A stretch of DNA of 64,000 bases from contig NZ_VAWF01000001.1 of assembly GCF_005869845.1 (NCBI RefSeq), positions 1 through 64,000 on the forward strand, written 5' to 3'. Every line of letters starts with the position of its first letter. Within the stretch, counting starts at the first letter, position 1. The position numbers and the translations under genes were made by a program. Positions 32,996 to 35,970 of the stretch are shown here, piece by piece. The notes beneath the pieces are model-generated. The model did not search any database. It saw only the letters and a list, made by a program, of their open reading frames with translations, and had not been told where the DNA came from. This stretch comes from Fodinibius saliphilus (lineage in GTDB: Bacteria > Bacteroidota > Rhodothermia > Balneolales > Balneolaceae).

Positions 32996-33117
32996 ACTTA
33001 ACGACCCGGCGCATAAGCGGCGCACGGATTTTTGTTGAATAAGCAACTAACGAAAGAAAAAACTTAAAACCAAGAGAGGCAAAGAATTGGCGAGGCACGT
33101 CCCGCTTAATGCGCGGG
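32996..33117 (-). repeat. attC site a (interrupted at its R'' end)
   Basis: Read on the minus strand: L''-type arm CCCGCGCATTAAGCGGGAC, a ~70-nt variable middle, a second arm GCCGCTTATGCGCC and R' box GTTAAGT (32996-33002). The arms pair with extrahelical bases, as in integron attC sites. The R'' box is separated by a short insertion at 33118-33152; a GTTA at 33153 may be its remnant. The middle part is nearly the same as that of site d (39597). Confidence 0.78.
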
Positions 33118-33152
33118 ATAGCGGTACTTGATATTTTCCTTTTTAGAGCGGC
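33118..33152. mobile_element. Relic of the IS right end in attC site a
   Basis: About 35 bp with ACTTGATATTTTCCTTTTTA closely resembles the right terminus of the IS110/IS1111-type element at 35216-35910 (CTTGACATTTTCCTTTTTAA). It sits after GCGCGGG of the attC site, the same spot where the other two copies sit. Interpreted as the last remains of a third insertion. Confidence 0.5.
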
Positions 33153-34254: not shown

Positions 34255-34376
34255 AGCTAACGACCTTGCGTATAAGGGGCACGCGAATGAATGTTGAGTT
34301 GTTAAATAATCAGCGAAAAGCTAAAAAGCCAGAGGGTGGCAAGCTCTGGCGAGGCACGTCCCCTTAATGCGCGGGG
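34255..34376 (-). repeat. attC site b (interrupted at its R'' end)
   Basis: On the minus strand the site reads CCCCGCGCATTAAGGGGAC, a variable middle (shared with sites c, e and g), a second arm GTGCCCCTTATACGC, and R' GTTAGCT (34255-34261). The R'' box GTTAGCTG (plus strand, from 34688) is split off by 311 bp of IS-derived sequence. The gene at 34705-35076 ends 14 bp from that box, so b is the attC of that cassette. Confidence 0.82.
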
Positions 34377-34687
34377 TAGCCTCGCAAACCTGCTGGCCCC
34401 AACCGATAAGCCCGAACGCCTAAGAGGGACTCAAAGCCCGTGCGCGGGATTGGGACATCGGTTGGCTGGCCGGTTAAAGATCTGGGATAGTAGCTCCCAC
34501 AGAGCTGCAGCTTCTGCCCATTGGCGGAGGATAAGCCCGAAAAGGGGGTTGGATGCCGGCAGGTAATCCGAACGTGATCAAACGAAACCGGTTGCCAGTT
34601 ACAGGTTATGGTTATAGGATTTATTGAGTAAAATTAAACGAATACCTAGGTGAGGACTGTCTGCTTGACATTTTCCTTCTTAAAGGG
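34377..34687 (+). mobile_element. IS110/IS1111-type right-end remnant in attC site b
   Basis: From 34380 to 34687 it aligns without a single gap to the right end of the element at 35603-35910, at about 94% identity (19 differences in 308 positions by eye). It has no transposase sequence and no left end. It sits between GCGCGGGG of attC and the GTTAGCTG core, the same relative place as the copy in site c. Either a deletion product or a right-end-only derivative. Confidence 0.8.
34380..34560 (+). ncRNA. Candidate IS guide (bridge/seeker) RNA, copy 1
   Basis: The noncoding right end of the IS remnant. A stem pairs CCAACCGAT (34399-34407) with ATCGGTTGG (34457-34465), closed outside by GGCC/GGCC. 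The homologous stem at 35622 keeps pairing with two compensatory base-pair changes. A further CCCGTGCGCGGG hairpin lies in the loop. In IS1111-group elements the guide RNA is encoded downstream of the transposase, as here. Ends are approximate. Confidence 0.55.
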
Positions 34688-34704
34688 GTTAGCTGTACTA
34701 TTCT

Positions 34705-35076
34705 TTAGTTTACGGTAATATTAAGCTTGATCAGCGTAATATTTTCATTTGGACTTGCTCCATCTGATCCTGTTCCTATCTTGATCTCAGCATAATCGCT
34801 ACCTTGAAACCCACTTTCAGATTGGTATTGATAGACTGCTTCCCAATTTGTAGTTGAATCTCGAACTATTGTACTTACTTCATAATTTTTGGGTTGTTCT
34901 TCAATTGTGACTACTTCTTCGTCTCCTGAAACACCAGTTTTGAATTCAAAAACTTCAGAACTACTGACCGATACATTTTTTATTTCTTCTTCAATATTTG
35001 GATCGGTGGAGTTTTGGCAACCGAATGAAGAAGCAAGCAGGAAAATTGCAATGAGAACAAAGTTTACTTTTTTCAT
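34705..35076 (-). CDS. Cassette-borne small lipoprotein
   Basis: A 123-residue lipoprotein with lipobox SSFGC (Cys20), then an Asp/Glu-rich spacer and a small beta-rich domain ending LIKLNITVN. Its ATG lies 26 bp after R' of attC site c and its stop lies 14 bp before the R'' of site b, the expected layout of one integron cassette. AGAGG lies before the ATG. The plan (lipobox, NSTDPNIEE, beta domain) resembles the lipoprotein at 32267, but a common origin is not shown. Unknown function. Confidence 0.68.
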   Translation of the reverse strand: MKKVNFVLIAIFLLASSFGCQNSTDPNIEEEIKNVSVSSSEVFEFKTGVSGDEEVVTIEEQPKNYEVSTIVRDSTTNWEAVYQYQSESGFQGSDYAEIKIGTGSDGASPNENITLIKLNITVN

Positions 35077-35101
35077 AAAAACCTCTCGTTTGTTTTAGTA
35101 C

Positions 35102-35215
35102 AGCTAACGGCATTGCGCATAAGGGGCGCACGAAATAATGTTTAGTTGATAAATAATGAACGAAAAGCTAAAAAGCCAGCAGGGTAGGGCGAGGCACGTC
35201 CGCTTAATGCGCGGG
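35102..35215 (-). repeat. attC site c (split by an IS element)
   Basis: Minus strand: CCCGCGCATTAAGCGGAC arm, variable middle shared with b, e and g, second arm GCGCCCCTTATGCGC, R' GTTAGCT (35102-35108). The R'' half (GTTAGGTGG on the plus strand from 35911) lies on the far side of the 695-bp IS element. Rejoining gives GCGCGGGTTAGG, exactly as in the intact sites d and g. Confidence 0.85.
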
Positions 35216-35283
35216 ATCTTTCCAAAAAGGAAGTCCTCACTTAGATTAGAAGTATCAACTGTAACTAATCCAAGGAGGACCCC

Positions 35284-35646
35284 ATGACCTATGTAGGAAT
35301 AGATCTTCACTCTAATAATATGGTAAATGTAGCGATTAACGGCAACGGGGAAGTGGTCCGGGAGGCCACCTCCCGGCGATCACTGGAGGATTTCTTTGGC
35401 ACCTTTGACGGGCCTGTGAAAGCCGCCGTCTCGGCCTATACCCATTACAAGGTTGTGAAGAAATTCTATCGCAAGATTAAACGCCGCAGCGGTCGCCCGG
35501 TAGCGCGAGCCGTGGTCGGGAAGGAGCTGGCCAAAGGCGTGTGGTATATGTTAACAAGAAACGAAGAGTATAACGGATGTAAGGGGCAGCCTGTACGGGC
35601 GGCCTCACAAACCTGCTGGCCCCAGCCTATAAACCCGAACGCCTAA
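35284..35646 (+). pseudogene. IS110-family transposase with internal deletion
   Basis: The first ~58 residues (MTYVGIDLHSNNMVNVAING) match the DEDD RuvC-like start of IS110 transposases, with Asp7 as first catalytic residue. Then the sequence jumps at YTHYK to the extreme C-terminal helix of the Transposase_20 domain (FYRKIKRRSGRPVARAVVGK, LAKGVWYMLTRNEEY). About 200-250 residues that should hold the other acidic residues and the catalytic Ser are missing, yet the reading frame is kept. The ribosome-binding site CAAGGAGGACCCC is strong. Inactive by itself. Confidence 0.85.
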
Positions 35647-35783
35647 GAGGGACACCGAGCCCGTGCGCGGGATTGGGGAATAGGCTGGCTGGCCGGCCGG
35701 AGATCTGGGATAGTAGCTCCCACAGAGCTGCAGCTTCTGCCCATTGGCGGAAGATAAGCCCGAAAAGGGGTTTGGATGCCGGC
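35603..35783 (+). ncRNA. Candidate IS guide (bridge/seeker) RNA, copy 2
   Basis: Downstream of the transposase remnant. Stem CCAGCCTAT (35622-35630) pairs with ATAGGCTGG (35680-35688) around a 49-nt loop, the same geometry as copy 1. Relative to copy 1, one A-T pair became G-C and one G-C pair became T-A, so pairing is kept in both. Of ~19 differences between copies, ~15 lie in the first 100 nt (this stem, its loop and the following bulge). This is expected if structure is kept and guide loops vary. Confidence 0.58.
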
Positions 35784-35970
35784 AGGTAATCCGAACGTGA
35801 TCAAACGAAACCGGTTGCCAGTTACAGGTTATGGTTATAGGATTTATTGAGTAAAATTAAACGAACACCTAGGTGAGGACTGTCTGCTTGACATTTTCCT
35901 TTTTAAAGGGGTTAGGTGGCTGTAGGATTTATATCAAGATATTAGACTGTGTATTATGTATGCTTCTCAA

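Follow-up and report, generated by a model that had tools for sequence, protein, structure and literature searches.

The first 64,000 nucleotides of contig NZ_VAWF01000001.1 of Fodinibius saliphilus (the window) carry two incomplete copies of an insertion sequence (IS). The element belongs to the IS110 family (IS1111 type) and lies in an integron cassette array of this member of the Balneolaceae. Its right end very probably encodes the guide RNA (bridge or seek RNA) of an element that inserts into the crossover box of attC sites. A first-pass annotation of the window had proposed a guide RNA at this end, and covariation, target-loop complementarity and a donor match all support that proposal. 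Guide RNAs of IS110 and IS1111 elements, their right-end location in IS1111 members and attC-targeting members were described in 2024 (PMC11187229, PMC11208160), so the system itself is of a known kind. What is likely to be novel is that the transposase reading frame encompasses the 5′ arm of the guide RNA stem and one target guide.

The two window copies match without gaps over 308 nt (34380–34687 and 35603–35910) with 19 differences, 15 of which lie within the first 100 nt, exactly as first annotated. A nine-pair stem is kept in both copies. The stem CCAACCGAT/ATCGGTTGG of the upstream copy and the stem CCAGCCTAT/ATAGGCTGG of the downstream copy differ at two pairs, both of which are still paired. 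These differences had been taken as a change from one copy to the other. The paired changes are real, but they did not arise between these two copies; they distinguish two stem lineages that circulate in the genus, form A (34399–34465) and form B (35622–35688).

Covariation extends well beyond this single stem. The fold of the window copy supplied a 40-pair structure, which was tested on an alignment of 20 right ends drawn from Balneolaceae, two further families of Bacteroidota and one member of the Thiotrichaceae. The 40 pairs were 87.7% paired, compared with 75.7% in shuffled alignments and at most 46% when the partner was slid by one to three columns. Double changes were found in 27 pairs versus 15.3 in the shuffles, and the covariation score was 0.381, as opposed to 0.173 for shuffled and no more than 0.111 for slid partners. 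Because relatedness can inflate covariation counts, compensatory changes were also counted on a tree, which gave 31 compensatory double changes where unpaired column pairs that had changed about as often predict 2.3. The two pairs named in the first-pass annotation underwent 5 and 4 independent compensatory events. When the set was enlarged to 27 elements with more from other Bacteroidota, the arms paired with their own partners in 228 of 243 pairs, whereas 20,000 reshufflings gave a mean of 160 and a maximum of 188. On a transposase-based tree of 26 of the 27 relatives we counted 21 compensatory events on true partners, while non-partner combinations averaged 0.07 and never exceeded 1; some of these transposases are frameshifted and a few long branches are unreliable, without bias towards true partners. 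By this comparative evidence the 9-bp stem is a real RNA structure, and the paired changes are the mark of a selected RNA, as originally suggested. Moreover, G·U occupied 90 cells and A·C only 24, an excess indicating that the plus strand is the molecule that is kept. RNAalifold added a long-range CUGGC/GCCAG helix and a UGGG/CCCG helix around two further covarying hairpins (Table 1), such that the donor part looks like a multiloop.

A central feature of the proposed mechanism is that the stem would close a target loop with two guide strands. One strand, GCCUAA (the T guide), would pair with the top strand to the right of the insertion point (TTAGGC), and the other, UGCGCGGG followed by AU (the B guide), would pair with the bottom strand to the left of it. 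The donor guide AAAGGGGUU, in the downstream multiloop, would recognize the right terminus of the element itself, and the transposase, which is intact at G000:C1:988016–989074 in the same genome, would use the RNA to choose and join target and donor. The suggestion that the loops read attC was borne out: GCCUAA is complementary to TTAGGC and UGCGCGGG is identical to the left flank, covering both halves of attC. Comparison with the IS ends yielded the separate segment AAAGGGGUU, which matches the right terminus. The top-strand complement (35641) precedes the bottom-strand match (UGCGCGGGAU, 35664), which is the T-then-B order of IS1111 seekRNAs. When target guides were compared with the flanks of their own elements, 12 of 5040 permutations did as well as or better than the observed assignment.

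Where relatives occupy other sites their guides differ accordingly, a retargeting that can be read directly from their sequences. The guides of relative L051 are AACCUGAU and UCCUGA, with flanks AACAACCTGAT on the left and TGTCAG on the right; those of L053 and L054 are CGCUUGAU and GCAUAAC, with flanks AACGCTTGAT and GTTAT, respectively. Counterparts of the donor guide likewise track the terminus in relatives (TAAGGUGUC, AAUGGUGUU, UAAAGAUGUU, UAAAGUGUU and AAAGGUGUU). The guides predict a 12-mer, TGCGCGGGTTAG, with 11 occurrences in the genome (3.6 Mb), compared with 0 for the reversed control. Three of these sites are in the window array, six are in the 732–742 kb stretch leading to the integron integrase gene (intI), and two are at C4:241–242 kb with attC-like repeats.

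Empty attC sites of the same genome read CTTAATGCGCGGGTTAGG, whereas the junctions of occupied sites are TTAATGCGCGG/GATCTTTCC (left) and TTTAAAGG/GGTTAGG (right). This comparison places the element in the attC crossover box, with the core GG of the 694-bp copy at 35214–35215 and 35910–35911. The intI gene at C1:744105–745046 scored 433.8 bits against a cut-off of 265, and the cassettes at 33–43 kb of the window constitute a distant array. Judging from the junctions, the element enters attC at one end, as do members of the IS1111-attC group, and the genome carries intI.

Assignment to the IS1111 type was based on the transposase and the element ends. Since the 120-aa open reading frame (ORF) in the window alone had no significant Pfam match, a full-length relative from the same genome was used for the domain search (G000:C1:987743–989264, minus strand). 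Its 353-aa transposase passes NF033542 (IS110 family RNA-guided transposase) with 217 bits, the cut-off being 140. The two long copies matched PF01548 (67.3 and 62.3 bits) and PF02371 (90–92 bits), corresponding to the DEDD RuvC and Transposase_20 domains, and the motifs GID, VECT, KTDTVDA and RLVPGSKNSGG are readable in the sequence. The IS1111-type combination of a DEDD RuvC domain with a Transposase_20 domain containing an S/T-G motif is therefore present. In elements of this type, about 7 bp lie outside the left subterminal inverted repeat and 3 bp outside the right one; here the 8-bp repeats AAAAAGGA/TCCTTTTT have 8 bp outside on the left and 3–5 on the right, depending on how the G run is divided. 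The non-coding stretch from the stop codon to the right terminus is about 260 nt, matching the IS1111 type, with the variation that the RNA starts within the gene. Transposase segments were 74–97% identical in named relatives from Fodinibius/Aliifodinibius and Balneolaceae. Among 72,556 plasmids there was no transposase match above 60% identity, the best being about 33–36% over most of the length, and ISKpn4, ISPst6 and ISPa25 did not appear by name among the matches to the two transposases searched. A scan of viral contigs revealed no relative of the element.

The transposase frame takes in the 5′ half of the target loop; covariation in the stem accordingly falls on synonymous positions, and the stop codon comes from the T guide. 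The 5′ arm is translated as part of Trp-Pro-Gln-Pro-Ile, in which covariation affects two bases, each at a third codon position: that of Gln (CAA/CAG) and that of Pro (CCG/CCT/CCC). The Trp-Pro codons are unchanged even where their RNA partners have been lost, which suggests a constraint at the protein level too. In 20 of the 27 elements the stop codon ends exactly 30 nt past the first base of the Trp codon and always within the T guide. The T guide codons of those 20 are GCC, GCA, GTC or ACC followed by UAA, and UCC UGA in L051, whose target is TCAG. A stop inside the guide is not a general rule, since one additional base makes the frame stop later in the other 7 elements (the L105 clade and L052). 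In elements outside the subfamily (L055, L057, L058 and L060–L062, as well as L123–L125) the stem and guides follow the stop codon; of four more distant elements used as outgroups, three were informative and L126 was unclear. The overlap thus looks derived in this subfamily. The full texts of PMC11187229 and PMC11208160 contain no occurrence of 'stop codon', and our literature searches, whose coverage was incomplete, found no report of a guide overlapping the transposase stop codon. We tentatively entertain, at somewhat less than even odds, the idea that in this subfamily the target guide has become part of the transposase gene, with the guide hexamer doubling as stop codon and the same bases specifying both target choice and termination. 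Each transcript would then be either fully translated or processed to a guide, which could couple transposase dose to RNA supply or enforce action in cis.

We considered the possibility that the structure acts as DNA, for example as a folded single strand of the right end that is recognized by the transposase. The attC targets are themselves used as folded single strands, and covariation alone is silent on RNA versus DNA. However, the 90 to 24 ratio of G·U over A·C is the strand bias expected for RNA, and a pure DNA hairpin leaves unexplained why loop segments match target and donor DNA and change together with them in relatives, making this explanation very improbable. The overlap with the stop codon would also be a natural place for translational or 3′-end control, in which case the structure would be an attenuator, stability element or 3′ end of the transposase mRNA and the guide matches would be inherited insertion remnants. 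While a dual role is possible, a purely regulatory function is hard to credit because the guide segments follow the flank in retargeted relatives and three segments match three parts of the junction. Finally, both stem forms exist in the genus and the two window copies carry one each, so the paired changes might be passengers spread by gene conversion between haplotypes A and B, with no selection on pairing. Compensatory change struck exactly these two pairs repeatedly on the tree (5 and 4 times), and in other lineages pairing persists between arms of wholly different sequence. This multi-lineage covariation contradicts gene conversion as the explanation, and we consider it almost certainly wrong.

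Several observations weigh against the guide RNA interpretation. No Rfam family matched anywhere in the window, although such bridge RNAs may be outside that library. Matches of the T guide are short in divergent elements (4–5 nt in L106, L040 and L135), guides are damaged in several copies (L036 and L050), and guide-flank variation is limited because most relatives also occupy attC-like sites. Bridge RNAs are expected to carry donor-recognition segments for both sides of the donor; here we found only a left donor guide and no convincing right half. Relatives gave no support for a complete donor loop in which a GGAAGAU-like segment before AAGCCCG would serve as the right donor guide. Whereas structure, strand, guide matches, retargeting and overlap are all documented in the sequences, transcription, transposase binding and guided recombination would be expected by analogy with characterized families; the defining features of IS1111 seekRNAs include co-purification with the transposase and a requirement for the RNA in transposition.

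Table 1. Positions in the window of the two IS copies, the predicted guide RNA and its parts.
Feature	Positions	Strand	Evidence or remark
Right-end-only copy; RNA and right end kept, left end and most of transposase gone	34376–34686	+	core GG 34687–34688
5′ arm, right-end-only copy, CCAACCGAT	34399–34407	+	
T guide GCCUAA, right-end-only copy	34418–34423	+	
B guide UGCGCGGGAU, right-end-only copy	34441–34450	+	
3′ arm, right-end-only copy, ATCGGTTGG	34457–34465	+	
IS copy of 694 bp, non-autonomous; both ends and guide RNA present, transposase ORF with internal deletion	35216–35909	+	junctions vs empty attC CTTAATGCGCGGGTTAGG; deletion by comparison with full-length G000:C1:987743–989264
Left subterminal inverted repeat AAAAAGGA	35224–35231	+	sequence
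In-frame deletion remnant (120 aa) of IS110-family transposase	35284–35646	+	stop TAA 35644–35646 within T guide
Probable guide (bridge/seek) RNA region, target and donor domains	35616–35872	+	covariation; fold z = −2.74; G·U:A·C cells 90:24
5′ arm of 9-bp stem CCAGCCTAT	35622–35630	+	in transposase frame (codons Gln-Pro-Ile)
T guide GCCUAA, complement of attC TTAGGC	35641–35646	+	last sense codon and stop of transposase
B guide UGCGCGGGAU	35664–35673	+	attC left flank and first two IS bases
3′ arm of 9-bp stem ATAGGCTGG	35680–35688	+	
Covarying hairpin 35713–35719/35725–35731	35713–35731	+	double changes in 7/7 pairs
Covarying hairpin 35734–35741/35746–35753	35734–35753	+	double changes in 8/8 pairs
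Donor guide AAAGGGGUU, IS right terminus, core and TT	35764–35772	+	own-terminus match in 20/40,320 permutations
Right subterminal inverted repeat TCCTTTTT	35897–35904	+	sequence

Both window copies are deletion derivatives that retain the guide; in the right-end-only copy the deletion fuses attC (ending in GCGCGGG) to the transposase 3′ end. The first-pass annotation had overlooked this state, as well as the A and B stem lineages and the position of the 5′ arm and one guide in the transposase frame. The only copy that we saw with both transposase and RNA intact is the one at C1:988 kb. The copy at G000:C1:730600–732100 has a long transposase frame from which the stem and guides are gone, so that this genome contains complementary halves, a transposase without RNA and, in the window (34376–34686 and 35216–35909), RNA without transposase. 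Movement in trans would therefore be possible. Several right-end-only remnants start at a short repeat common to attC and the IS, namely CGCGGGAT (the guide copy) in L100 (1490–1530), TAAGGGGC at C1:729.7 kb (L029, 2220–2240) and CGGG at window positions 34370–34380; guide-target identity may thus promote deletions. Another short remnant of the IS right end lies in the attC at 33106 (33106–33152). Some of the RNAs (L036 2597–2615, L046 2521–2538 and L050 2682–2703) have small palindromes, CCCGAGTATTCGGG for instance, inserted in a loop or an arm. Inspection of the right terminus revealed a conserved TTGACA (35887–35909) that, once joined to 35216–35223 in a circular form, would lie 17 nt from GATCTT/GATATT of the left end. 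These motifs may constitute a junction promoter, such as the one reportedly present in ISEc11.

The element resembles the IS1111-attC group (ISKpn4, ISPst6 and ISPa25; PMC11187229) in its DEDD transposase, subterminal inverted repeats, right-end RNA, T-before-B guide order and insertion at one attC end. It differs in its transposase, which is far from all those in the plasmid collection, and in its hosts, which are Balneolaceae and other Bacteroidota; the described IS1111-attC transposases form a gammaproteobacterial clade. Moreover, the published descriptions place seekRNAs downstream of tnp (PMC11187229), while the target loop of the window element overlaps the stop codon and the reading frame. 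With the bridge RNA of IS621 and the IS110 group (PMC11208160) it shares a two-part target loop, a separate donor-recognition segment and a shared core dinucleotide, but the RNA is in the right end, the guide order is reversed and only the left donor guide was found. The donor part in a multiloop also differs from IS621 and agrees with what PMC11208160 notes for IS1111 members. A second IS110-type group in Balneolaceae integrons (L055, L057, L058, L060, L061 and L062) likewise has attC-like flanks and guide-like segments (CGCUUGAUUGG) downstream; its transposase is 29–34% identical to that of the window element, and its RNA begins only after the transposase stop codon.

To the naturally retargeted RNA-guided recombinases these results add a lineage from Bacteroidota and Balneolaceae whose target and donor guides can be read from sequence. 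In its compact layout the programmable loop overlaps the coding sequence and stop codon. This overlap makes it possible to test how far the T guide can be reprogrammed while still ending the protein, and whether ribosomes compete with guide RNA folding.
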